Assembly: GCA_028819955.1 (NCBI GenBank)
Contig: JAPPKP010000098.1
Span: 1 to 17,810 of the forward strand
Reading direction: 5' to 3'
DNA from: Rhodospirillaceae bacterium
GTDB lineage: Bacteria > Pseudomonadota > Alphaproteobacteria > UBA828
DNA: 17,810 nucleotides
Shown: one piece after another, positions 6,542 through 17,810 of the stretch
Numbering within the stretch: position 1 is the first letter of the stretch
Layout: each line of letters opens with the position of its first letter
Made by a program: the position numbers and the translations under genes
The notes under the pieces: model-generated
What the model saw: the letters and a program-made list of their open reading frames with translations, nothing else
Told to the model about the DNA's origin: nothing
Databases searched by the model: none

Positions 6542-7375
6542 CTAGTGCTCTGCCCGCGCTGAATCAATGGCCCGTCCGATGAAGACCGAGACCAGCGCGG
6601 CGCCGCCATGGCAAAGCGTGAAGAGCGCGAGCGCGGCGACCACGATCGACGGGCCTGAGGGCGTATCCCAGGCGAGGGAGCCGTGCAGCCCGCCGGCGAC
6701 TGCCACCGCCCCAATCGCGCTTGCGAGCAGCGCCATCTGCTCGGGCGAGCGCGCGAGCCGTCGCGCCGTCGCCGCCGGGATGATCAGGAGCGACACGATC
6801 AATATGAGTCCGATGATCTTCATGGCGATGGCGACAGCGAGCGCGATCAAGAGGGTGAAGGCGATGCGGACGAGGCCGGCCCGCACACCCTCGGCGCGCG
6901 CCAGCTCCTCGTGGACGGTGACCGCCAGCAGCGGCCGCCAGATCAGCGCCGTCGCGACCAGGACCACGCCGCCGCCGCCATAGATCAATATCAGGTCACG
7001 CCCCGTTACCGCCAAGATGTCGCCGAACAGGTAGGACATCAGGTCTACGCGCACGCTCTGCAGGAAGCTGATCCCGACGAGGCCGAGGGCCAGCGTGCCG
7101 TGCGCGAGGATGCCGAGGAGCGTGTCGGTGGCCAAACGCCGTTGCTGTTGGAGCAGAAGAAGCAGCAGGGCGAGCGTGACACACATGAGGACGATGCCGG
7201 CGTTGAGCTCGATGCCAAGGGCGACACCGAGCAGGACGCCGAGCAGCGCGCTGTGCGCGATCGAATCGCCGAAGTAAGCCATGCGCCGCCACACCATGAA
7301 GCAGCCGAGCGGCCCGGTGGCGAGCGCCACTCCGATGCCGCCCGCAAGCGCGCGCGCGAAGAAGTCGTCGAACAT
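6542..7375 (-). CDS. znuB: Zinc ABC transporter permease ZnuB
   Basis: Inner-membrane permease of the ABC-3 (metal) family that carries zinc across the membrane with ZnuA and ZnuC. The 277 residues form about eight hydrophobic segments. Characteristic stretches are the N-terminal GPLGCFMVWRRMAYFGDSIAHSA (21-43), SYLFGDILAV (114-123), and the MKIIGLILIVSLLIIPAATA region (185-204), which holds the cytoplasmic coupling loop typical of ZnuB/MntB permeases. ATG 7375 lies 9 bp after the znuC stop with no separate ribosome site, so translation is probably coupled. The zinc-specific name rests on the zur and znuC neighbours; manganese or iron permeases look similar. No periplasmic ZnuA gene is in the window. 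Confidence 0.95.
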   Translation of the reverse strand: MFDDFFARALAGGIGVALATGPLGCFMVWRRMAYFGDSIAHSALLGVLLGVALGIELNAGIVLMCVTLALLLLLLQQQRRLATDTLLGILAHGTLALGLVGISFLQSVRVDLMSYLFGDILAVTGRDLILIYGGGGVVLVATALIWRPLLAVTVHEELARAEGVRAGLVRIAFTLLIALAVAIAMKIIGLILIVSLLIIPAATARRLARSPEQMALLASAIGAVAVAGGLHGSLAWDTPSGPSIVVAALALFTLCHGGAALVSVFIGRAIDSARAEH

Positions 7376-7384
7376 TGGGTGAGG

Positions 7385-8227
7385 TCAGCCAGCCCGGTCG
7401 GACTCGGAACCGGAGTCGAGTGAGCCGTCGTCAACCGGTGCCACCGCGATGGGGTGGTCATGACGGTGGCCGGGATCGTGGGTGTAGACCGCAAGCGCGG
7501 CAGCGGCACTGGGGCCGAACAGCGAAACGTATTCGGGGTGTCGGCTCACCGCCTCCGGCTCGCCCGCGCAGCAGACGTGCCCATTGATGCACACCACGCG
7601 GTCGGTCGCGCCCAGGACCAGGTGGAGGTCGTGGGAAACGACCAAGACGCCGCAGCCGCGGCGGTCGCGCAGGCGGCCGATCAGTCGGTGCATGGCGAGC
7701 TGGCCCGCAAAATCGACCTGCTGGATCGGCTCGTCGAGCACCAGCAGGTCTGGGTTGCGCAGAAGGGCGCGGGCGAGCAGGACACGCCGGAACTCGCCAC
7801 CGGAAAGGCTGCTGAGCTGGCGGTCGATCAGCGCCGCCGCCCCCACCTCGTCCAGCACCGCGGTGGCTTCGGCACGGGCCCGACGCCCCGCCATCGTCAG
7901 GAAGCGGCGCGTGGTCAGTGGCAGGAGCTCCTGCGGCTCGATGCGCTGAGGGACATATCCCACCACGACACCCGGCGCGTGATGCACGACGCCAGCATCC
8001 GGCTTGATGAGGCGGAGCAGTGCACGTATGGCGGTGGTCTTGCCGGCCCCGTTGGGCCCGATCACGCTCACCACCTCGCGACGGCGAACCTCGATCGAGA
8101 CCCGATTCAGCACGGCGCGTCCGCCGTAGCGCACCACCAGATCGCGGCCCGAAGCGAGCAGCGGCCCGGCAGCCGCGTCCGGCCGGGGACTCAGGGCGTC
8201 TGCGGAAGCGTCGTGCAGCGCGGACAC
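7385..8227 (-). CDS. znuC: Zinc ABC transporter ATP-binding protein ZnuC
   Basis: Cytoplasmic ATPase that drives zinc import. The translation has Walker A GPNGAGKTT, the Q-loop (GYVPQR), the ABC signature LSGGE, Walker B LLVLDEP with the ZnuC-like continuation IQQVD, and the switch histidine in VVSHDLH. A His- and Asp-rich tail (THDPGHRHDHP) near the C-terminus is common in ZnuC and may sense or hold zinc. The reading frame stays open far upstream inside zur, so the start is uncertain. GTG 8227 gives 280 residues and a 37-bp overlap with zur. A CTG at 8194 would overlap the zur TGA as CTGA and give a more usual N-terminus (269 residues). No ATG is available near the expected start. Second gene of the zur-znuC-znuB-hisI run. 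Confidence 0.93.
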   Translation of the reverse strand: MSALHDASADALSPRPDAAAGPLLASGRDLVVRYGGRAVLNRVSIEVRRREVVSVIGPNGAGKTTAIRALLRLIKPDAGVVHHAPGVVVGYVPQRIEPQELLPLTTRRFLTMAGRRARAEATAVLDEVGAAALIDRQLSSLSGGEFRRVLLARALLRNPDLLVLDEPIQQVDFAGQLAMHRLIGRLRDRRGCGVLVVSHDLHLVLGATDRVVCINGHVCCAGEPEAVSRHPEYVSLFGPSAAAALAVYTHDPGHRHDHPIAVAPVDDGSLDSGSESDRAG

Positions 8228-8697
8228 TTGCCGTGCAGCTCGATGATCTTGCGTGAGAGCGCGAAGCCGGTGCCGGCCGCTTGGTCCGAGACGGCGCGAT
8301 CGATGCTGGCCGCATTCATCTCCGACACGTCGCCGCAGTCTCCGCATATGAGAAATTGGGCGCTATGGCGGCGGTCTGGCTGGGGGCAACCGACGAAGGC
8401 GTTGAGACTGTCGATGCGGTGAACCAGACCGTGGGCCATCAGGAACTCAAGGGCGCGGTACACAGTCGGCGGCTTTGCCGCGCCCTCCCCATCACTCAGC
8501 GCGGCCAGCAGGTCGTAGGCTTTGACCGCGCGATGACTGCCCCAGACCAGCTCCAGCACCCTACGTCGCAACGGGGTGAGCCGAACGCCGCGCTCGCGGC
8601 ACACGTCCTCGGCGCGGGCGAGCGCGTCCTCGATGCAACCCTGATGTTCGTGCCCGCCTTCGGGGAAGGCCGGCTCGTCGCCCTGCGAGCTGTTCAT
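8191..8697 (-). CDS. zur: Zinc uptake regulator Zur (Fur family)
   Basis: Fur-family repressor of 168 residues that, with zinc bound, represses zinc import genes. The winged-helix DNA-binding half contains RGVRLTPLRRRVLEL (36-50) and the recognition region PPTVYRALEFL (76-86). The structural zinc site is formed by Cys118-X2-Cys121 (ICGDCG) and Cys158-X2-Cys161 (GKCPRC). A His-rich N-terminus (GGHEHQGC) precedes the first helix, a feature often seen in Zur. Assignment as Zur rather than Fur rests on the znuCB partners and this pattern. ATG 8697 has GAGGAG a few bases upstream. It leads the operon and probably controls itself through a site over its promoter. Confidence 0.93.
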   Translation of the reverse strand: MNSSQGDEPAFPEGGHEHQGCIEDALARAEDVCRERGVRLTPLRRRVLELVWGSHRAVKAYDLLAALSDGEGAAKPPTVYRALEFLMAHGLVHRIDSLNAFVGCPQPDRRHSAQFLICGDCGDVSEMNAASIDRAVSDQAAGTGFALSRKIIELHGKCPRCTTLPQTP

Positions 8698-8749
8698 CCG
8701 CTCCTCGTCTTCGCCGCCGAAACTAGCTTCCCAGCTTCGCGCCGTAGCG

Positions 8750-8770
8750 AATAGGTTACACTATATCATT
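8750..8770 (-). promoter_or_regulatory. Candidate Zur box over the zur operon -10
   Basis: A 21-bp AT-rich stretch in GC-rich surroundings is partly dyad-symmetric about position 8760: AAT/ATT at the ends and TA pairs near the centre. It overlaps the -10 hexamer at 8760-8765, where a repressor site belongs. Symmetry is incomplete, so the assignment rests mainly on position. Confidence 0.35.
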
Positions 8771-8788
8771 TCTGGGCAGATTTGTTCA
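8760..8788 (-). promoter_or_regulatory. Sigma-70 promoter of the zur-znuC-znuB-hisI operon
   Basis: On the minus strand TGAACA (8788-8783, four of six matches to TTGACA) is followed after 17 bp by TATAGT (8765-8760, five of six matches to TATAAT). Transcription would begin near 8753, about 55 nt upstream of the zur ATG. This is one of the best promoter matches in the window. Confidence 0.55.
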
Positions 8789-8819
8789 GTGGCGCAAGTC
8801 TTGTCCGGGGCCAGGCCGG

Positions 8820-8837
8820 GCGGCCTCTCGGGGCCGC
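8820..8837 (-). terminator. GC-rich hairpin downstream of the binding-protein gene
   Basis: GCGGCC at 8820-8825 and GGCCGC at 8832-8837 form a 6-bp stem with a 6-nt loop, 22 bp beyond the stop of the minus-strand binding-protein gene and upstream of the zur promoter. There is no T-tract, so it is at best a weak or Rho-assisted terminator. Confidence 0.25.
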
Positions 8838-8859
8838 TGCGTGGAAACCGCGGAGGCCC

Positions 8860-9804
8860 TCAGCGCGCCCAGATGGATACGGTGCTCAAATAATTCCGGT
8901 TGGCCCGGTCCAGGGGATAGAAGATTTCGCTGTCGCGTCCGAACCAGCGCTCGTAAATCTCGTCGTAGCGGCTGTTGGAGTCTTTCACGCCGGAGAACAT
9001 GTCGATGAGGACCCTGTTGACGGTGTCGCGCCAGGGGCTGTCGTCCTGCGGCAGTACGCAGGCCAATGCTTCCATGGCGAGCGCGAATGTGCGCGGGAGC
9101 AGAACCACGCTGCGGCGCGGCTCCGCCTTCGCCGCGAGTCCCAGAAGCGTGATGCCGATGTTGGCGACGCCACTCACCTCGCCCGCCGCAAGCGCGGACA
9201 TGGCATCCTTCATGGTGGGGTAGAGGTGCAGGTTGGCCATGGGCAGTTGGTCCTGGACAATTGTCACGGTGGTCGTGCCCTCGACCACGCCGATGTCGAG
9301 GGTTCCGAGGTCCACACCGCCGGTGGCCTTCTCCCGATAAATCAGAATTCGTGTGCCGTCGCGAAAGAACGGCACCGAGAAATCCACCAGCGCCTCCCGA
9401 TCCCAAGTCGGGGTCGTGATGCCACACACGATGTCGAGCTCGCCTGCGGCAACGCGCTGCAGCCGGTCGCCAGGTGTGACCTCATGAAGCTCCAGCGTGA
9501 CCGGCCGGCCGACCTGTTCCTCCGCGGCCGCCCGGATCAACTCCAGCAGGTCGACCGAGAAGCCCTCGAACCCGCCGCTTTCCAGCTTCCGTGCGAAGGG
9601 CGGCGCACTCGCCCTGGTGCCAGCACGAATGACTCCTCCGGCTTCGATTTTGGCGAGGACGCCATTGGCGGCGGCGTGTGCCGGAGCCGCGAGGCGCGGC
9701 ACGGCCAGCGTCAGGGCGATGAGCGTAATTACAAGTCCCGCGCACCGAATTGGTGCCCAGAGGTGCGGCCTACCGAGATATCGACGATCGCCGAAGCCGG
9801 GCAT
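8860..9804 (-). CDS. Periplasmic amino-acid-binding protein (SBP family 3)
   Basis: A 314-residue solute-binding protein of the polar-amino-acid type. After a basic N-terminus and hydrophobic segment (residues 20-39), a cleavage site is likely after APAHA (41-45). The mature part has the family landmarks GVIRAGTRASAPPFA (57-71), GFSVDLLELI (81-90), GELDIVCGITTPTWDREALVDFS (121-143) with Arg136 placed to bind the ligand carboxylate, and a C-terminal YDEIYERWFG (280-289). The frame is open further upstream to 10053, but ATG 9804 has an excellent GAGGGGAG ribosome site and is followed directly by the signal peptide, so that start is chosen. It is divergent from the fused binding-protein/permease gene and has no permease of its own on this strand. 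It may supply a second ligand specificity to that system. The ligand is unknown. Confidence 0.88.
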   Translation of the reverse strand: MPGFGDRRYLGRPHLWAPIRCAGLVITLIALTLAVPRLAAPAHAAANGVLAKIEAGGVIRAGTRASAPPFARKLESGGFEGFSVDLLELIRAAAEEQVGRPVTLELHEVTPGDRLQRVAAGELDIVCGITTPTWDREALVDFSVPFFRDGTRILIYREKATGGVDLGTLDIGVVEGTTTVTIVQDQLPMANLHLYPTMKDAMSALAAGEVSGVANIGITLLGLAAKAEPRRSVVLLPRTFALAMEALACVLPQDDSPWRDTVNRVLIDMFSGVKDSNSRYDEIYERWFGRDSEIFYPLDRANRNYLSTVSIWAR

Positions 9805-10013
9805 ACTCCCCTCAAAGTCCGTTGCCGATCTCGCAGGATCCGGTGCCTCGATCTGGCTCGCCTCGCGGCGCGGGCACCGAAGGAGCGACACCAGAAACCG
9901 ACTCCTCCCTCGGGCACGATACTCTATTTCGTGTGATAGCCATATCGGATAGGCTTTCGAATCGCTGCGGCTAGCGGCACCGCGGCAACGGCTGAGGGGG
10001 GCAGCAGTCCTAT

Positions 10014-10042
10014 TTGTTGACCTTTCCCCGGCTACGTAAGAT
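10014..10042 (+). promoter_or_regulatory. Possible promoter of the leader and fused receptor/permease genes
   Basis: TTGTTG (10014-10019) and TAAGAT (10037-10042) are spaced by 17 bp. The matches to consensus are three and four of six, so this is weak. If real, the transcript would carry a structured 5' leader of roughly 200 nt. An overlapping TTGACC at 10017 is a better -35 but leaves only 14 bp. Confidence 0.25.
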
Positions 10043-10052
10043 CGAGTTGGCA

Positions 10053-10076
10053 CGATGATTCACGCGACGATCATCG
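10053..10076. promoter_or_regulatory. Inverted repeat CGATGAT-N10-ATCATCG
   Basis: Perfect 7-bp arms at 10053-10059 and 10070-10076 surround a 10-bp spacer, just downstream of the possible promoter. The outer-half centre spacing (17 bp) suits a dimeric regulator bound on one DNA face, or a hairpin early in the transcript. No regulator gene for it is identified here. Confidence 0.4.
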
Positions 10077-10170
10077 ATATCCGACGCGCTGCGGCCAAGG
10101 CGTCTCGCCGGGCCTCTATGGTGGACACAGCTTCGGCGCGGACTGGGTGATGCGAACGCGGGCTCCAGTT

Positions 10171-10189
10171 CCTCCTTCCAGGAAGGAGG
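10171..10189 (+). promoter_or_regulatory. 19-bp palindrome that can hide the leader Shine-Dalgarno
   Basis: CCTCCTTCCAGGAAGGAGG is a perfect inverted repeat of 9-bp arms around a single A. In RNA it would fold as an 8-bp stem with a CAG triloop. The 3' arm contains GGAGG, ideally placed 5 nt before the GTG of the leader ORF, and the 5' arm CCTCCTT is its exact complement. Folding would therefore block ribosome entry. As DNA it could also be an operator. Confidence 0.55.
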
Positions 10190-10194
10190 CGACC

Positions 10195-10266
10195 GTGGGC
10201 GGCGCCCTCCCCAACGATGTTCTCTTGCCTGAATCGGCAACGTTACACTTGCGGGTTGACGCATGA
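10195..10266 (+). CDS. 23-codon leader ORF coupled to the fused gene
   Basis: GTG 10195 is preceded by GGAGG at 5-nt spacing, the strongest ribosome site in this spacer. The frame encodes 23 residues and ends at TGA 10264-10266, which overlaps both ATG 10263 (ATGA) and ATG 10266 (TGATG) of the next gene, a classic coupling arrangement. Five of the 23 codons are leucine (CTC, CTC, TTG, TTA, TTG), including TTA, which is rare in such GC-rich genomes. The frame is open back to 10021 with an ATG at 10150, but that start lacks a good ribosome site. The peptide resembles nothing I know; its value is probably in regulating translation of the downstream gene. Confidence 0.5.
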   Translation: MGGALPNDVLLPESATLHLRVDA

Positions 10267-11864
10267 TGAGGCGACTTCCCAAGTGGTGGATCCTTCTTGC
10301 GGTCGCGCTCACCGCCTGGGCCGGCTTGGCCGCTCCCGCGCTTGCCGACCGGCTGCAGGAGATTCAGGACCGCGGTCACGTCATCGTCGGCGTCAAGGAG
10401 GACTACGCGCCCTTCGGCTTCCGCGACACCGACGGCGAGCTCGTGGGCTACGACGTAGACGTGGCGCGTGGTTTCGCAGAGGCGATCGGCGTCGACGTCG
10501 AGCTGGTTCCTGTGACCAGCGCGAACCGCCTGCAGAAGGTGGGGCGAGGCGAGATCGACATCGTGGCTGCCACCATGGGCGACACGCGCAGCCGCCGCGA
10601 GCTGGTCACCATGATAGAGCCGCAATACTACGGCGATGGCGCCAACGTGCTTCTACGCGACAGCGCCAAGATAGGCACCTGGGCCGACCTGCGCGGCCAG
10701 ACCGTTTGCGGCCTTCAGGGCTCGCTGTGGAACCGGCTGGCCAAGCAGCGGCTGCTTCTCGACGTGACCGCGTTCAACAGCACCCGCGAGGCCGGCCAGG
10801 CTCTTCGCAACGAACATTGCGTCGGCTGGATTTACGATGAGGTCCTCCTTCTCCACGAGATCGAGACCGGGGATTGGGATGGTTTCTCCGTCACGCTGCC
10901 GACCCGCTTCGTGCTGCCCTGGGCCGTCGCCATCGCCAAGGAGGAAGGCGGCGGCGCGCTCGATCAGCTCATGGGCGACACGTTGGCGCAGTGGCATCGC
11001 GACGGTTTCCTACAGTCGCTTGAAGAGAAGTGGGGTCTGCCGCCGTCCCCGTTCCTGCGGGATGCGCGCACCACCTGGCAGGAGGTCGACGAAACCGGCG
11101 GGCTCAAGTGCCAACGCAACGAGCAGGGCCAGTGGCCGCTGGAGTGCCGCGAGGTCGCTTTGGTCACCGGCAGCGGCATCGGCGGCCTTTCCGGCTTCTC
11201 GCTGACGATCATGGAGGTAACGGGTCTCGATATCAGCATCCTGTATGACCCGCTCGACCGAGACGTATTTCTCTATGGCCTGGGACTAACAGCGCTGCTG
11301 TCTCTGATCACGGTGGTCGGCAGCGTCTTGCTCGGTGTGGTGTTCGGTTGGCTGATGCACCGGCGGGTGCCCGGAGTGAGCCATTTCCTGCGGGCGTTCA
11401 GCGAGTTCATGCGCATGACGCCCCCGTTGCTTCAGCTCTATATCGTGTTCTTCGGTCTGGGCGGCGTGCTCCTGGCTTTGGGCTTTACCATCGATGCGTT
11501 CCTGGTTGCGGCTGTGGTGCTGTCTCTCTACGCGGCATCCAGCAACGCGATCGCGTTCTCGCTGGCGGCCGATGTCGCGGCCGCCGGCGGGCGCAAGCTC
11601 CGCTTCACCCCGCGGGATATTCAGCGAGCGTTGGTGCTCTGTTACGCCGCGGTGATGGGCAACTCCGCCAATATCGTGAAGGCCACGGGGATGGCCAGCA
11701 CGCTCGCGCTGCCTGAGCTGGTTCACGCCAGCACGTCGATCGTGGCCGAGAAGGGCAATGCCGACGTGATGATGAACCTGCTTCTGATCTGCTACTTCGT
11801 TCTTGTCATCATCACTGTCCAGCTCTTCCGGCGATTCGAGAGGGGCAAGGCCGCCACGCTATGA
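10263..11864 (+). CDS. Fused amino-acid-binding domain and HisM-type permease
   Basis: A 533-residue fusion. Residues 1-28 are a signal peptide or anchor (cleavage after APALA possible). Residues 30-262 are a family-3 solute-binding domain with GHVIVGVKEDYAPFGF (38-53), GYDVDVARGFAEAIGV (62-77) and the IDIVAATMGDTRSRR stretch (98-112). A linker with Cys283 and Cys295 follows, then a HisM/GlnP-type transmembrane domain (about 335-525) marked by FMRMTPPLLQLYIVFFGLG (382-400) and KATGMASTLALPELV (473-487). Binding-domain/permease fusions are known in glutamine transporters such as lactococcal GlnPQ. The cytoplasmic EAA loop that docks the ATPase is about ten residues shorter than usual and lacks EAA-X3-G. 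No good ribosome site precedes ATG 10263/10266; the leader ORF overlaps it. The next permease gene overlaps by ATGA. No ATPase gene is in the window. Confidence 0.9.
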   Translation: MMRRLPKWWILLAVALTAWAGLAAPALADRLQEIQDRGHVIVGVKEDYAPFGFRDTDGELVGYDVDVARGFAEAIGVDVELVPVTSANRLQKVGRGEIDIVAATMGDTRSRRELVTMIEPQYYGDGANVLLRDSAKIGTWADLRGQTVCGLQGSLWNRLAKQRLLLDVTAFNSTREAGQALRNEHCVGWIYDEVLLLHEIETGDWDGFSVTLPTRFVLPWAVAIAKEEGGGALDQLMGDTLAQWHRDGFLQSLEEKWGLPPSPFLRDARTTWQEVDETGGLKCQRNEQGQWPLECREVALVTGSGIGGLSGFSLTIMEVTGLDISILYDPLDRDVFLYGLGLTALLSLITVVGSVLLGVVFGWLMHRRVPGVSHFLRAFSEFMRMTPPLLQLYIVFFGLGGVLLALGFTIDAFLVAAVVLSLYAASSNAIAFSLAADVAAAGGRKLRFTPRDIQRALVLCYAAVMGNSANIVKATGMASTLALPELVHASTSIVAEKGNADVMMNLLLICYFVLVIITVQLFRRFERGKAATL

Positions 11865-12538
11865 CAGCAGGGGAGACAGTCGACGTCCTGTGGGCGTGGT
11901 CGCCTTACTTGGCGGTAGGATTCGGCTGGAACATCATCGTCTCTCTGCTCGCCATGGCCGTCGGCACCATCGTCGGACTGCTGCTGGCCCTGCTGCGGGG
12001 TGGCTCCCATTGGAGCGTGAGGCACAGCGGCGGTGCAGTGACGACGCTCGCGCGCAATGCGCCGACCTTCGTCATGCTGTTCTACCTCGCCTACATCATC
12101 CCCACCGAGTTCACCCTCTTCGGCGCTGCCGCGACCTTCCCGGCCTGGATCAAGGCATCACTGGCGCTGGGCATCGCCGTCGCGGGCTACGTGTCCGACA
12201 ACGCGCTCGCCGCCATAAGACATCTACGCCGCCATGAGATGGCGGAGGCGTTGCTGTTCGTGCCGGCCTGGACCAGCTACTTCCTGATCATCGTCATGGC
12301 ATCCAGCACCGCCTCGGTGATCGGCGTGCCCGAGCTAGTACGACGGGCGGATACGGTGATCGGCGCGGTCGACGAAGTGGGGTTGGCGCTCTGGGTCTAT
12401 CTTTGGGCTATGATCTGGTTCCTTGGGTTCAGCCTTCTTTTGACGTTCAGCATGAATTGGCTCAGCAGGCACATCAAGCGGCGCGTCCATCGGCCGCTGG
12501 AGGAGGCCACCGACCTCACTGGCGGCCCACTCCCGTGA
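11861..12538 (+). CDS. HisMQ-type amino-acid permease, divergent
   Basis: A 225-residue inner-membrane protein with hydrophobic segments near 17-46, 68-82, 95-112, 130-147 and 178-197. ARNAPTFVMLFYLAYII (64-80) matches the R.TP..vqL signature of polar-amino-acid permeases, and SVIGVPELVRRAD (152-164) matches the conserved segment before the last helices. Between them, the stretch that normally contains EAA-X3-G and the LPQA.R helix is about 18 residues shorter than in standard relatives, so the usual ATPase coupling helix is missing or altered. It begins inside the stop of the fused gene (ATGA overlap) and is presumably its heterodimer partner. The phosphatase gene follows after 55 bp. Confidence 0.85.
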   Translation: MTAGETVDVLWAWSPYLAVGFGWNIIVSLLAMAVGTIVGLLLALLRGGSHWSVRHSGGAVTTLARNAPTFVMLFYLAYIIPTEFTLFGAAATFPAWIKASLALGIAVAGYVSDNALAAIRHLRRHEMAEALLFVPAWTSYFLIIVMASSTASVIGVPELVRRADTVIGAVDEVGLALWVYLWAMIWFLGFSLLLTFSMNWLSRHIKRRVHRPLEEATDLTGGPLP

Positions 12539-12593
12539 GGGCGCCCCGCGCCGGGCGTGGGCTTCGGTCGTACGCCACAGCGGGGTATCGCCT

Positions 12594-14579
12594 TTGACCC
12601 TTTCCAGACGCTTGATCATCACGGTTGCGGCGTCCGTCGGCGTGGCGATTGTCAGCGTGGCGTTGGCGATGGGATTTCTCGCGCGCGACGCACTCATCCA
12701 ACAAGCCGAAGACCAAGCGCTGCTCGTCGCCGGGCTCATCGCGAGCGAAGCCAACCGGGCGGAGCACACCGCCGACGAGATCGACCGTATGATCGTCAGA
12801 CAGATGGAAGCGCAAGCGCTTGCCATCGCTCGTTATCTGGATAGCCACGAGCACGAGGAGGAAGACGACGACGTCCTCGGCGCCTACTTCGCGAAACTGA
12901 CGGCGGATAGTGCCGTCGACGACATCTGGCTTCTCGACCGAGCGGGTAGGCCGTTGGTGCGCGCCATCGGCGGCCTCAGCGAGAGTGGCGCGCCGGATCT
13001 GGCGTCCGCCGGTATCGATCCTCGTGTCGTGGAGGCGCTGGTATCGGGTCGACGTTTCTCTGTCTCCTTCCAGTCGGTCCCGCCAATGGGGTGGGAAAAG
13101 CCGGTCAGATATGTCGGCGTTCGCGCCCGTACACACGAGACCGTGCTGGTCGGCACGTTGGCGGCCGAGGCCGGCGGCCCAGGCGACATCATCGGCATCG
13201 GCGCGGCACTGGACTCCCTGGCCAGTCGGGAGGCCATCCGGTCGATCTGGGTGGTCAACGACCTGCTGCATCTGATCGGCATGGCCACCTTCGGGGGCAA
13301 AGACAGCCCCGAGGCCGACGCGGCTCTCTCTGCGGACGACGCGGATCTCGCCACGCGCGTTCTCGGCGTCGACGGCGCCGAATCGTATCTCGGCGAGAAC
13401 GCTCTCCACGTGGCGGCTCCGATCCTCGATCGCGGCGGTGTTGCTACAGGCGCAGCAGTGATCCACATGCAGAGGGACCATCTGGATCGGCTGTTCGAGG
13501 ACCACATCAAGTTCGGCTTGATCGTGGCCGCGGCGACCTTCGCCATCGGGTCCATCATCGCGGCAGTGTCCGCGCGCCGCATCGTGCAGCCGGTCACGGC
13601 GCTGACCACGGCCGCAGCAGAGGTGGACACAGACACGCTAAGTTTTGCCCCGGAAACGCTGGACCCCGTCGCCGTCCGGCGGGACGAGCTCGGCACACTT
13701 GTCCGCGTGTTTCAAAACATGGTGCGCCAAGTTCAGGCGCGCGAGGAATATCTGGAAAGCATGGTCCGTGCCCGCACCCGCGAACTAGAAGCGTCGAACG
13801 CGCAGTTGGAAAAAGCCAAGGAGCGGATGGAATCGGAGCTCAAAATCGCGCACGCCCTGCAGGGTGCGATCTTGCCCAAGACGTTGCCGGAAAATCCGAC
13901 CTATTCGGGACACGCGGTCATGACGCCCGCGCGCGAGATGGGCGGCGACTTTTATGACTTCTTCACTTTGGACGATGGTCGTCTCAGCCTGGTGATGGCA
14001 GATGTTTCTGGCAAAGGGGTGCCTGCGGCATTCTTCATGGCGATTGCGCGTACGGTCATGCGCGCGGCGGCGGCCCGGTACCCCAGCCCGGGCCCCTGTC
14101 TGCAGGAGGTCAACGACGCCATCTGCGAGCAAAACCCTCAGGACCTGTTCGTGACGCTCTTCTATGGCATCCTGGATCCCAAAACAGGCGAGTTCGTCTA
14201 CGCCAATGCCGGGCACAATCCTCCGTTCGTCGTCAAGCACCCCAGCGAGGTCTTGCCTCTGCCGATGACAGGAGGCATGGCCGTAGGTGTCATGCCTGGC
14301 ATGCCCTACGATGAAGACGCGGTGACTCTGGCGCCGGGAGACACGATGTTTCTCTACACGGACGGCATTACCGAAGCCATGAATGTCGAACAGGAGGAGT
14401 TCACCGAGGCCCGTCTGGAGGCGGTTTTGGCCGAAGCTCGGGACTTGCCGGTCGATTCAGTGCTTGAGAATGTCACCAGTGCGGTGGTTAAGTTCGTCGG
14501 CGAGGCGGAGCAATCTGACGATATCACATGCATCGTGCTACGCTATGATGGCGCCACCGATGATCGTGCGTCTGGCTAG
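12594..14579 (+). CDS. Membrane sensor with HAMP and PP2C (RsbU/SpoIIE) phosphatase domains
   Basis: A 661-residue sensor phosphatase. Residues 8-29 and 306-327 are membrane helices enclosing a periplasmic domain of about 275 residues. Within it DDIWLLDRAGRPLVRA (109-124) and LHVAAPILDRGGVATGAAVI (271-290) look like a double-Cache fold. An unusual HEHEEEDDD run (85-93) could bind metal. A HAMP domain (328-381) and a coiled coil (382-415) lead to the PP2C domain, which keeps EMGGDFYDFF (448-457), MADVSGKGVPAAF (468-480), YANAGHNPP (536-544), LYTDGITEAMN (587-597) and SDDITC (641-646), so all metal-binding aspartates are present. Such enzymes dephosphorylate STAS anti-sigma-factor antagonists. 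The TTG start at 12594 has GGGG 8 nt upstream. It lies 55 bp after the permease and may be cotranscribed; a STAS gene lies 1.7 kb away. Confidence 0.93.
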   Translation: MTLSRRLIITVAASVGVAIVSVALAMGFLARDALIQQAEDQALLVAGLIASEANRAEHTADEIDRMIVRQMEAQALAIARYLDSHEHEEEDDDVLGAYFAKLTADSAVDDIWLLDRAGRPLVRAIGGLSESGAPDLASAGIDPRVVEALVSGRRFSVSFQSVPPMGWEKPVRYVGVRARTHETVLVGTLAAEAGGPGDIIGIGAALDSLASREAIRSIWVVNDLLHLIGMATFGGKDSPEADAALSADDADLATRVLGVDGAESYLGENALHVAAPILDRGGVATGAAVIHMQRDHLDRLFEDHIKFGLIVAAATFAIGSIIAAVSARRIVQPVTALTTAAAEVDTDTLSFAPETLDPVAVRRDELGTLVRVFQNMVRQVQAREEYLESMVRARTRELEASNAQLEKAKERMESELKIAHALQGAILPKTLPENPTYSGHAVMTPAREMGGDFYDFFTLDDGRLSLVMADVSGKGVPAAFFMAIARTVMRAAAARYPSPGPCLQEVNDAICEQNPQDLFVTLFYGILDPKTGEFVYANAGHNPPFVVKHPSEVLPLPMTGGMAVGVMPGMPYDEDAVTLAPGDTMFLYTDGITEAMNVEQEEFTEARLEAVLAEARDLPVDSVLENVTSAVVKFVGEAEQSDDITCIVLRYDGATDDRASG

Positions 14580-14721
14580 CGTCGACCAGATGCGCTGCGA
14601 GCGGGCTGACTGAATTGTGAAGGTTTTTTGAATGGTAAGGAATTCGGCGTTAGAGTTTACTCTCTCGCGCTTCCGTGGGAAACGATGTGCAGCGCGGAGC
14701 CGGCGCACAGGCAATTCTTGA

Positions 14722-14751
14722 TGACAGTTGTCAGCTTGGAGCGTTCTAGAA
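14722..14751. promoter_or_regulatory. Two palindromes upstream of a small ORF
   Basis: TGACA-GT-TGTCA (14722-14733) and TTCTAGAA (14744-14751) are perfect palindromes 10 bp apart. They contain TTGTCA (-35-like, 14728) and TAGAAT (-10-like, 14747), but these are only 13 bp apart, too close for a standard promoter without an activator that distorts DNA. They lie 25-54 bp before ATG 14776. Confidence 0.35.
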
Positions 14752-14775
14752 TCTACGAAGCAGGGAGGAAGTGCC

Positions 14776-14989
14776 ATGAGGGAAAAGGAGAAGGTGCCCC
14801 CGTAAAGATAAGTTAACTGAAGGCGATCGGCGATACCGAGGCGGAAGGGGTCGTTGGCGCGACTGGGCGACGAAGCCCAATTCGCGCGAGCCGACGGAAG
14901 AAGAGTTCACAAGTGCCACCGGCGGCTATAATCCCGGCTCTTCCTTAGCGGACCCGTCTAGCTGCCTTGCTGGATGCGCAGACGCATAG
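14776..14989 (+). pseudogene. Possible small gene with a one-base frameshift
   Basis: ATG 14776 follows an excellent AGGGAGG ribosome site, but the frame stops after nine residues (MREKEKVPP). A run of five C at 14797-14801 precedes the stop. If one C were absent, the frame would run to TAG 14987-14989 and encode 70 residues: basic and Arg-rich at first (including RRYRGGRGRWRDWATKPN), then an EEEFTSATGGYNPGSS segment and a Cys-containing tail. That reads like a genuine short protein, but I recognise no family. Options are a pseudogene, a sequencing slip in the homopolymer, programmed frameshifting, or a chance open frame. The codons are less GC-rich at third positions than those of the flanking genes. 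Confidence 0.3.
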
Positions 14990-15311
14990 CCGGTGTCACG
15001 TGTGCCATTGCGTCCTAAAACTGTATCGGGACCCGGGCGTCACTGCCGATCGTTCGACGTCATGACTTGAGGCGGATGGGAGACGCCTACCGCTCCGCTC
15101 CGGCCACAAACGGCGGGCCAGCGGACCGCTCGGCTGGCGCCCAATCGATCTCTCGGTCGCAGTACGGTTTCGCGGGGCTGTAGCAAGCACGCCAAGCCTA
15201 ACGGCACGACAGCGGGTTTCGTCTTGCGGCCTCGCCGATCATGCACAGGCTCTTTCGTATAGCGCGGCCCGCGTACGTTCATCGCCGCGACCGCGCACAC
15301 AAGGACCGACC

Positions 15312-16262
15312 ATGCCCGTTACGCTGCGTCAATTACGCTACTTTCAGGCCCTGATCGAGCACGGCTCCTTCAGCCGCGCGGCCGAGAGCGTCCACGTCTC
15401 GCAGCCCGCGCTTTCGCTCCAGATCCGCGAGCTTGAGGCCTCGCTCGGCGGGCCACTGGTGGAGCGCGAGAGCCGCGGCGTTCTCCTCACGCCGCTCGGT
15501 CGAGAGGCGCACGAACAGACGCTCAGAATTCTGGACGAGACGCTGCTGCTGGAGACCATGGGGCAGCGGTACGAGGCGGGCCCGCTCAGGGTCGCCGTCG
15601 GGATCGTCTCCACGCTGGCGCCCTACCTGCTTCCGGGAATCCTGACCCACCTGCACGATGTTTCGCCCCGCGTCGAGCCCGACATCGTGGAGGCGCCGGG
15701 CCAAGCTCTCGTGTCCAGTCTCCTCGCCGGCCGTCTGGACGCAGCCATCGTCTCGCTCCCGCTTGGCATGCTGGAGCTACCCGAGCGAGAGCTCTTCGAG
15801 GATCGTCTCGTGCTTGCCGGTCGCACCGAGCGTCTCGCCTCGATCCGCCGCGCCCTCGGCGACGAGCTGGGTCCGGCGGATCTGGCTCGGGCCGACATTG
15901 GGCCGCTTCTCACCCTCGGTGATGGCCATTGTCTGGCTGATCAGGTTCTGGGCGCCTGCCTGATGTGGCGTATGCAGGAGGTTCGCCGCGGCGCAGAGTC
16001 GCTCGCCACGCTGTCGAGGCTCGTGGCGAGCGGTGCCGGGTTGACGCTCATTCCAGAAACCGCGGCGCTCTCTGAACGCGCAGCAGTTCCAGAACTGAGT
16101 TTTCTCCGCTTTGTTGCCCCCGAGCCCTCACGTCGGATCGGCCTCACCCATCGCGTCGCCGCTCACGGTCAACCGTGGATCGACTTGCTGGCGGAGGCCG
16201 CAACGAGCGCTGGCCAAGCGCTTACGGAGGAAGCACGGGAGGCGATCAGCTCAAGCGCCTAG
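15312..16262 (+). CDS. oxyR: OxyR-type LysR regulator (peroxide sensor)
   Basis: LysR-family activator of 316 residues. The N-terminal winged helix-turn-helix (TLRQLRYFQALIEHGSFSRAA, then VSQPALSLQIRELE) matches OxyR closely. The regulatory domain holds GDGHCLADQVLGAC (203-216): Cys207 and Cys216 are nine residues apart, as Cys199 and Cys208 are in E. coli OxyR, so the peroxide-reactive disulfide can form. LATLSRLVASGAGLTLIPETA (231-251) also fits OxyR. ATG 15312 has AAGGA about 7 nt upstream. OxyR genes often adjoin katG, ahpC or similar targets; none is here. It converges with the STAS gene, and glcF lies beyond. Glycolate metabolism can produce peroxide, but a functional link is only a guess. 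Confidence 0.9.
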   Translation: MPVTLRQLRYFQALIEHGSFSRAAESVHVSQPALSLQIRELEASLGGPLVERESRGVLLTPLGREAHEQTLRILDETLLLETMGQRYEAGPLRVAVGIVSTLAPYLLPGILTHLHDVSPRVEPDIVEAPGQALVSSLLAGRLDAAIVSLPLGMLELPERELFEDRLVLAGRTERLASIRRALGDELGPADLARADIGPLLTLGDGHCLADQVLGACLMWRMQEVRRGAESLATLSRLVASGAGLTLIPETAALSERAAVPELSFLRFVAPEPSRRIGLTHRVAAHGQPWIDLLAEAATSAGQALTEEAREAISSSA

Positions 16263-16282
16263 CCTTCGAGTATCCAGTACGG

Positions 16283-16621
16283 TCAGACCTCGACGGCCGC
16301 GAGTGCTTCGGCCCGTGACGGGCGTATCGTGATGATCGTGTCGAACCCGCTATTCTCGAAAATCTTCTGAACGGGCTCCGAAAGCGAGCAGAGCGCAAAC
16401 CGCGCGTCGCGGTTGGAAACGGCCTTGGCGACGGCGAGCACGGTGCGCAGGCCCGCACTGCCGATGTAGTTCAGCCTCTCGCAGTCAACGATGACCGCGC
16501 GGTCGCTGTCGGCGATCGCGGTCTCGATCGCCTCACGAAACGCGAGCGCCGTGGAGCCGTCGATGCGGCCTTCCACCCGCACCGATAGCACGCCGTCCCT
16601 CCGCTCAGTCGTCACGTCCAT
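16283..16621 (-). CDS. STAS-domain anti-sigma-factor antagonist
   Basis: A single STAS domain of 112 residues from ATG 16621; the frame extends to a TTG at 16681 (132 residues) and passes an ATG at 16645, none with a clear ribosome site. The start chosen gives the usual length and begins just before the first beta-strand (TTERRDGVLSVRVEGRIDG). The key loop reads LNYIGSAGLRTVL; Ser55 (of 112) occupies the phosphorylatable position of SpoIIAA/RsbV, with Gly in place of the preceding Asp, as in many proteobacterial members. Its phosphorylation would be controlled by a HATPase kinase/anti-sigma factor and a PP2C phosphatase; the latter could be the membrane sensor at 12594-14579. It lies 81 bp downstream of glcF on the same strand and ends 20 bp from the convergent oxyR stop. 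Confidence 0.85.
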   Translation of the reverse strand: MDVTTERRDGVLSVRVEGRIDGSTALAFREAIETAIADSDRAVIVDCERLNYIGSAGLRTVLAVAKAVSNRDARFALCSLSEPVQKIFENSGFDTIITIRPSRAEALAAVEV

Positions 16622-16702
16622 GGGGTCTGTTTCAGCCGTGACCATTGCAACGATTGCCCGACACGAGGTCGTCCGATCCAACTCCGCCGCGCGTTTCCCA
16701 GA

Positions 16703-17810
16703 TCATACGGCCCCAAGCCGCTGCAGTGCCGCCGGGCGCGGTCCGCCGGTTGCCCAGTCGAGCAACTCGACCGTGTGCACCACCGGTAACGCGGTGTGGC
16801 CGGCGATTTGCACCATGCAACCGATATTGCCTGCAGCCACAAGTGCAGCACCGGTGCTCTCGATCGCCGTCGCCTTGCGCGCCCCGAGCGCCCCGGCCAA
16901 GTCGGGCTGAAGCATATTATATGTACCCGCCGAGCCGCAGCAGAAATGACCGTCCGGGACCGTTCGCACGTCAAAGCCTGCGGCAGCAAGCAGGGCCATC
17001 GGCTGCCGGTCGATCTTCTGGCCGTGCTGGAGCGAGCAGGCCGAGTGATAGGCGACGGGCACTCTCGTGGGCGGCGAGCCTGGGCCCGTGACACCCATCT
17101 CGTCGAGCAACTCGCTGATATCGAGGGCGAGCGCTGCCACCCGGGCCCCGGCCTCTGCGTGTGTCCTGTCGTCTTTGAGCAGGTGGCCGTAGTCCTTGAG
17201 CATCGTCCCGCAGCCGGACGCTGTGGCGACGATGGCATCGAGCCCGCCTTGGGCTGCCTCGCGCGCGAAGGCGGCCGCCGTGCGCCCGGCTTGGGCGTGA
17301 CCGCGCGCCTCGTCGCCCAGATGGTGGGAGACCGCTCCGCAGCAGCCGGCGCCGCGCGGCACCACCACCTCGCAGCCGTGACGGGTGAGCACGCGCACCG
17401 CCGCCTCGTTGATCTCCGGCGCCAGCACGCATTGCACGCATCCCGAGAGCAGCGCCACCCGCTTGCGGGGCAGGCCCTGGGCCGGAATGACCTGCGGTCG
17501 CTCGACCCAGCTCGGCCCATACGAAGGCCGGCCGGCGAGGCGAAGCAGGGCACCAATTCGCCCACCCAAGAGCGGCGCCAGCAGCGCCGGCCCCCGCGCG
17601 GCGAGGAGCGCAAGGCGCGCCAAAGTCCGGTTCGGCAGCACGGCGCTGAGCAGGGTGCGGAGCACGCGCTCGGCACGCGGTCGCTCCCAGGTGCGCTCGA
17701 TATGGCCGCGCGCGTGGTCGACCAGGTGCATGTAGTCGACCCCCGCCGGGCAGGTGGTCATGCAGGAGAGGCAGGAGAGGCAGCGGTCGATGTGGCGGGT
17801 GACCGTGGCG
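16703..17810 (-). CDS. glcF: Glycolate oxidase iron-sulfur subunit (5' part cut by window end)
   Basis: GlcF, the iron-sulfur subunit that with GlcD and GlcE oxidises glycolate to glyoxylate at the membrane. About 369 codons are visible; the N-terminus with the first ferredoxin motif lies beyond the window. The visible part starts with a [4Fe-4S] motif, CLSCLSCMTTCP, then two cysteine-rich CCG domains: SGCVQCVLAPEIN with RGAGCCGAVSHHLG, and AYHSACSLQHGQ with FCCGSAGTYNML. An apparent ATG at 17761 is internal, since the cluster-binding cysteines lie upstream of it in the same frame. It ends in TGA 81 bp before the STAS gene. glcD and glcE would be expected upstream, outside the window. Confidence 0.94.
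   Translation of the reverse strand, partial: ATVTRHIDRCLSCLSCMTTCPAGVDYMHLVDHARGHIERTWERPRAERVLRTLLSAVLPNRTLARLALLAARGPALLAPLLGGRIGALLRLAGRPSYGPSWVERPQVIPAQGLPRKRVALLSGCVQCVLAPEINEAAVRVLTRHGCEVVVPRGAGCCGAVSHHLGDEARGHAQAGRTAAAFAREAAQGGLDAIVATASGCGTMLKDYGHLLKDDRTHAEAGARVAALALDISELLDEMGVTGPGSPPTRVPVAYHSACSLQHGQKIDRQPMALLAAAGFDVRTVPDGHFCCGSAGTYNMLQPDLAGALGARKATAIESTGAALVAAGNIGCMVQIAGHTALPVVHTVELLDWATGGPRPAALQRLGAV

Follow-up and report, generated by a model that had tools for sequence, protein, structure and literature searches.

Fused binding domains are known from GlnPQ, one of the PAAT/HisMQ type I ABC importers. Transporter-type receptors are also an established kind, and UhpC is a transporter homologue that acts as a receptor. 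For many membrane PP2C switches no input signal is known, and we know of no permease-type receptor in the SiaABCD or RsbU/RsbV/RsbW systems, which combine a membrane HAMP-PP2C phosphatase with a STAS antagonist. CbrA joins an SLC5 transporter domain to a sensor kinase and transports histidine (PMC7096432). In both CbrA and UhpC signalling relies on a membrane domain of transporter type, the fold is that of a secondary transporter and the output is two-component. Here we analyze a 17,810-nt stretch of DNA from a Rhodospirillaceae bacterium (JAPPKP010000098.1; hereafter the window), which encodes an SBP-permease fusion (SBP, solute-binding protein), a partner permease (perm2) and a membrane PP2C phosphatase. 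Judged from its sequence, this system is likely to be a transmembrane receptor, probably for an amino acid, that descends from an amino-acid ABC importer and controls a partner switch. Unlike CbrA and UhpC, it would employ an ABC-type fold without its motor.

The three genes are co-directional. As the initial annotation had described, perm2 overlaps the fusion gene by 4 bp (ATGA) and a HAMP-PP2C phosphatase gene follows after 55 bp (Table 1). With the PAAT/HisMQ importers (ArtQ of 4YMS; GlnPQ, 6h30) the locus shares a family 3 SBP domain, a HisM-type and a second permease, and the same membrane fold. The binding domain is clearly SBP family 3 (PF00497, 95 bits, cut-off 26.4). The membrane domains are more distant. 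Neither the fusion nor perm2 matched PF00528 (BPD_transp_1) even at E<=10, and TIGR01726 gave 39.7 and 40.2 bits, slightly under its cut-off of 42.2. The homologues of both proteins in a relative, L067, do match PF00528 with 58.2 and 63.6 bits, and a profile built from 50 partner permeases hit a single solved chain, 4YMS_D of the amino-acid permease ArtQ (3.9e-13). By these sequence comparisons, the annotation of a binding domain fused to a HisM-type permease is right, with a remote permease kinship. In a structure search with the fusion model, the binding domain took up all listed matches.

What sets the pair apart from the PAAT/HisMQ importers is the loss of the loop by which a permease docks its ATPase. 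Loop length was taken as the number of residues between fixed conserved positions. Among 28 comparison relatives, four of them fused and accompanied by an ATPase and 24 ordinary importers, all have loops of 54 residues in both subunits. Relative to these, the window fusion is 10 residues short and perm2 20; the initial annotation had put the deficits at about 10 and 18, which proved accurate. We surveyed the best 80 of 287 loci found, of which 78 are short-loop. Together with the window, the fusion loop measures 37-48 residues in 79/79 rows (44 in 62 of them), and the perm2 loop, measured in 77 rows, has 34 residues in 76 and 25 in the remaining one. Wherever a measurement could be made, the coupling helix is cut in the fusion and in perm2 alike. 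In a hidden Markov model alignment of the perm2 profile with ArtQ, a 20-residue gap opens immediately after the point where the coupling loop begins with an EAA-like stretch. A short remnant of the helix start, AEAL in the window, persists in perm2. The EAA-X3-G motif is present in neither window permease, as first noted.

A motor gene is not found beside the pair either. No ABC ATPase adjoins the permeases in the 17,810-nt stretch read; a cognate gene may lie farther off in the genome. The initial claim that the window contains no ABC ATPase at all was mistaken, since it encodes ZnuC, which is part of a zinc-uptake operon separate from the pair. Across the 78 short-loop loci, the 2.5 kb downstream never contain an ABC ATPase gene in the same orientation, although the contigs of L005, L075 and L077 end earlier. 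The loss does not look like decay. Compared with four sister loci, the fusion, perm2 and PP2C genes give dN/dS values of 0.06-0.16 (0.06-0.12 for perm2 alone), which indicates purifying selection; we therefore reject an importer decaying into a pseudogene. Because of these values and the 230 fusion homologues found (best 120 listed), the three-gene arrangement is not a product of chance.

The phosphatase linkage is conserved as well. A PP2C gene lies on the same strand within 4.5 kb in 56 of the 78 short-loop loci, a STAS gene near the fusion in 36 and an RsbW-like HATPase gene within 9 kb in 30. These counts are phmmer matches to window or relative proteins, and distant versions may be missed. 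By contrast, PP2C, STAS, HATPase and methyltransferase matches were found near none of the 24 ordinary importers, all of which were read over stretches of 5 to 16 kb. The permease-PP2C linkage is retained across several differing gene orders, and in some relatives it has become covalent, so that a transporter-type domain is joined to a signalling domain where the window has separate genes. Perm2 and PP2C form a single protein in one clade, at five loci, and in 22/24 database proteins; at six loci of another clade, the Kaistia group, perm2 is instead fused to an RsbW-like kinase (HATPase). We reject a chance pairing with PP2C, given its absence from the stretches read for all 24 ordinary importers and these two kinds of domain fusion. 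Two of the database proteins are irregular: P0125 stops within the HAMP region and has no phosphatase domain, and in P0141 the permease and PP2C start run into a Na+/H+ antiporter, which we read as a misassembly.

The active residues of the window's switch proteins are intact. In the phosphatase, two hydrophobic segments (located by eye) flank an unclassified region of about 270 residues, followed by HAMP (PF00672, 2.4e-5) and PP2C (PF07228, 1.6e-53, 182 bits) domains. Its catalytic aspartates are intact: Asp 452, 455, 470, 590, 642 and 643 are conserved in 63/63 aligned rows (window counted twice) and include the presumed metal ligands. The closest solved relative is 6k4e, a 'putative serine phosphatase' that we take to be SiaA. 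Unlike the SiaABCD phosphatase, the window protein scores only 116 bits with the SiaA equivalog model NF038263, far under the cut-off of 700. The STAS gene lies 1.7 kb from the PP2C gene on the opposite strand, with a LysR gene in between. Its phospho-acceptor, Ser75 (GSAGL), is conserved in 20/20 aligned rows (STAS matches above 60 bits, window counted twice), and by sequence the antagonist is the likely substrate of the phosphatase. Five of the seven sister loci L001-L007 have the STAS gene and the contigs of the remaining two end before its place. An RsbW-like kinase gene was not found within the seven sister loci; all seven sister genomes carry HATPase_c_2 genes elsewhere.

Four relatives show what the system may have looked like before the loss. 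These Oceanibaculum-type loci (L061, L067, L123/L143 and L124, the four genomes searched of one order) encode the same SBP-permease fusion, with 38% identity to the window protein in L061 and L067 (tblastn), and like the window they combine it with a partner permease, a free SBP, PP2C, STAS and, in their case, HATPase. They differ from the window in having a dedicated ABC ATPase, both 54-residue loops and a methyltransferase. In L061 and L067 the genes form a one-strand run of STAS, PP2C, methyltransferase, free SBP, fusion, perm2, ATPase and RsbW-like HATPase, while the other two genomes have the same set in two groups on opposite strands. Against the dedicated ATPase of L067, those of the other three genomes show 78, 68 and 68% identity. 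Since these loci carry switch genes together with an ATPase, the switch had joined the importer before the motor was lost. The ATPase-bearing relatives all keep the full loop and therefore serve as a control, not a refutation.

The ordinary importers provide the second comparison. A search of 385 genomes of the class found 32 that match at 1e-60, comprising the four fused with ATPase, four short-loop and 24 ordinary importers. In the last, binding protein and permease are separate genes, and 22/24 have an ATPase within 2.5 kb downstream. The ATPase query of earlier searches had included an out-of-frame stretch before the real start; this count and the five-genome comparison below were made with the ATPase alone. 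A tree of 91 rows with the loop columns removed joins the PAAT/HisMQ importers to the short-loop family and places each group on one side of a branch, with Shimodaira-Hasegawa-like approximate likelihood ratio test support of 100 for ordinary importers, 95 for fusions with ATPase and 100 for fusions without. The tree is a quick one, with long branches and no bootstrap, and includes 12/24 ordinary importers; L126, L128, L136 and L139 (incomplete or merged frames), L144-L151, and L005, L076, L077 and L078 are omitted. Its simplest reading is that an importer acquired the fusion and switch genes and then apparently lost the ATPase and both loops in a single joint event. The branch to the short-loop group is long (1.33), which fits a change of function. 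Two rows labelled Anaerolineae and Phycisphaerales (L015, L030) group among alpha- and gammaproteobacterial rows, for which binning contamination is likelier than transfer.

Taken together, these genomic results support the initial proposal that the pair acts as a receptor and not as an importer: no ATPase gene adjoins the pair, both loops are cut, and the pair is linked, in relatives fused, to partner-switch proteins. We propose that an amino-acid-like ligand would be captured by the free binding protein, the fused binding domain or both, and that the closed domain would then dock onto the permease heterodimer. With no ATPase to drive, the heterodimer would shift shape and alter the activity of the adjacent membrane phosphatase; in the Kaistia group, the movement would reach the fused kinase in place of PP2C. 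The phosphatase would dephosphorylate the STAS antagonist, which could then capture an RsbW-like anti-sigma kinase and so free the target of that kinase. In this scheme we infer the ligand class, the docking, the sign of the signal, the identity of the kinase in the window's organism and the final target.

Several observations weigh against this proposal. The support for it is genomic. An RsbW-like kinase gene is absent from the window, and the phosphatase has a non-cytoplasmic region of its own and could sense alone. Among the short-loop loci, 21/78 lack PP2C, STAS and HATPase matches in the vicinity (some lie on short contigs), which makes the switch one context among others, and a 57th PP2C match, in L069, is partial and on the opposite strand. 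An S-adenosylmethionine (SAM) methyltransferase gene occurs near the fusion more often than PP2C does (60/78, within 9 kb) and has no role in the scheme. Two ordinary importers, L130 and L151, have full loops, yet their downstream 2.5 kb, as far as read, show no ATPase. Finally, the correlation between loop and ATPase has one origin, because the loss is one event on the tree.

The alternative that survives best, though we regard it as unlikely, is that the pair passes its ligand without ATP, as a facilitator or by secondary transport, and that flux or occupancy also signals. The PP2C and kinase fusions point to signalling as the main job, with which flux would still be compatible. We find it improbable that the pair is an ordinary importer borrowing an ABC ATPase encoded elsewhere in the genome. 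Shared ABC ATPases such as MsmK exist, generic amino-acid ABC ATPases occur in 5/5 short-loop genomes tested (41-49% identity for the best matches to the L067 dedicated ATPase), and L130 and L151 likewise lack a visible downstream ATPase. However, every measured short-loop locus has the loop cut in both subunits, whereas all 28 full-loop relatives, L130 and L151 included, keep 54 residues in both; nor do switch genes lie near any of the 24 ordinary importers. It is least probable of all that the phosphatase uses its non-cytoplasmic region to detect a ligand by itself, the permease pair being a mere neighbour or a regulated target gene: the long segment between its hydrophobic stretches would allow it and transporters often neighbour their regulators, but the single proteins that join the permease to PP2C in one clade and to the kinase in another, and a linkage that survives several different gene orders, speak against it.

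Returning to the motorless receptor, we lean slightly towards a wider receptor class, in which partner-switch genes had already settled near an ABC importer when it lost its ATPase and both coupling helices, ligand-driven permease movements act on PP2C or an RsbW-like kinase, and side branches use other outputs such as chemotaxis receptors. In such a class the RsbW-like kinase, a GHKL ATPase, would have replaced the ABC ATPase. An ABC-importer permease pair that serves a partner switch without a motor was not found in our searches of the open-access PMC literature. The locus gives a membrane PP2C switch a concrete, testable input module, and the relatives outline a path from importer, through importer with phosphatase switch, to motorless receptor. 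If the proposal is true, an ABC-type permease works without ATP hydrolysis, which would allow the ligand-driven half of the transport cycle to be examined separately from the ATP-driven half. The relatives are named transport proteins in databases, and uptake would therefore be predicted where sensing may occur.

Table 1. Features of the window (aa, amino acids; ORF, open reading frame)
Feature	Position	Strand	Details
SBP-permease fusion gene	10263..11864	+	533-aa ORF; SBP_bac_3 E 3.9e-27
Parts of the fusion protein			signal peptide; SBP domain, about residues 28-261; periplasmic linker; HisM-type transmembrane domain, about residues 330-532
Former docking-loop site, fusion	11544..11675	+	44 residues versus 54; EAA-X3-G gone
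Partner permease (perm2) gene	11861..12538	+	225-aa ORF
Docking-loop deletion site, perm2	12200..12301	+	34 residues versus 54
Membrane PP2C (SpoIIE/RsbU type) phosphatase gene	12594..14579	+	661-aa ORF, TTG start; HAMP and SpoIIE/PP2C
Free periplasmic SBP (family 3) gene	8860..~9804	-	PF00497 4.7e-20; divergent from fusion gene
STAS-domain anti-sigma-factor antagonist gene	16283..16681	-	PF01740 6.8e-22; TIGR00377 82.7 bits, cut-off 53.45
Zinc-uptake operon, ZnuB, ZnuC and Zur-like regulator	6542-8697	-	ZnuC at 7385-8347

The free SBP gene on the other strand had been missed by the initial annotation, as had the kinase and methyltransferase of the relatives. Its start at 9804 is an estimate, the likely one in a reading frame that stays open to 10053, and its product scores 131 bits with the GrrP model TIGR04262, under the cut-off of 190. 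Of the short-loop loci, 41/78 carry a homologue of this SBP no more than 5 kb from the fusion. Any free SBP within 3 kb was counted at 56/78, or 55 after removal of L043, where the SBP belongs to a neighbouring ordinary transporter. The fusion itself has two invariant cysteines, C283 and C295 (window 11109-11147), in the linker between binding and membrane domains, and further cysteines, C149 and C186, in the binding domain; disulfides are possible. An Rfam scan of the window gave zero matches at gathering scores, and promoter and terminator scans of 8700-15400 gave counts close to shuffled expectation.

Among the relatives, the SAM methyltransferase often lies just upstream of the fusion gene (for example L043:8120-8926 and L008:8057-8956); the window and its seven sister loci showed no such gene. 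Where PP2C is missing, other genes can take the place behind perm2. Methyl-accepting chemotaxis protein receptor genes start about 50-180 bp downstream in three such loci (L038:3709-5232, L056:11208-12854, L060:11327-12874). In two Azospirillum loci (L022:11232-14177, L048:11232-14189) a protein with Peripla_BP_6 and mechanosensitive-channel domains is encoded behind the permease pair, and in Paraburkholderia oxyphila (L063:8329-8877) a sigma-70-family ORF starts a few bp past perm2. This is the sole relative seen with a sigma-70-family gene beside the permease, neighbours having been scanned non-exhaustively. The chemotaxis, channel and sigma-70 neighbours, small in number, suggest a receptor with exchangeable outputs. 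Two Roseomonadaceae (L052:3663-5309, L069:11202-12989) encode homologous proteins of 548 and 595 aa behind perm2, with no Pfam match at E<=0.001. Genes for an ammonium transporter (L009:5337-6773) and a type III glutamine synthetase (L012:4891-6999) adjoin STAS genes next to the module, a hint that the signal may concern nitrogen. In L071, the gene for a 966-aa protein with four SBP_bac_3 stretches (14902-17799) has a second PP2C gene and a HATPase gene in its neighbourhood.

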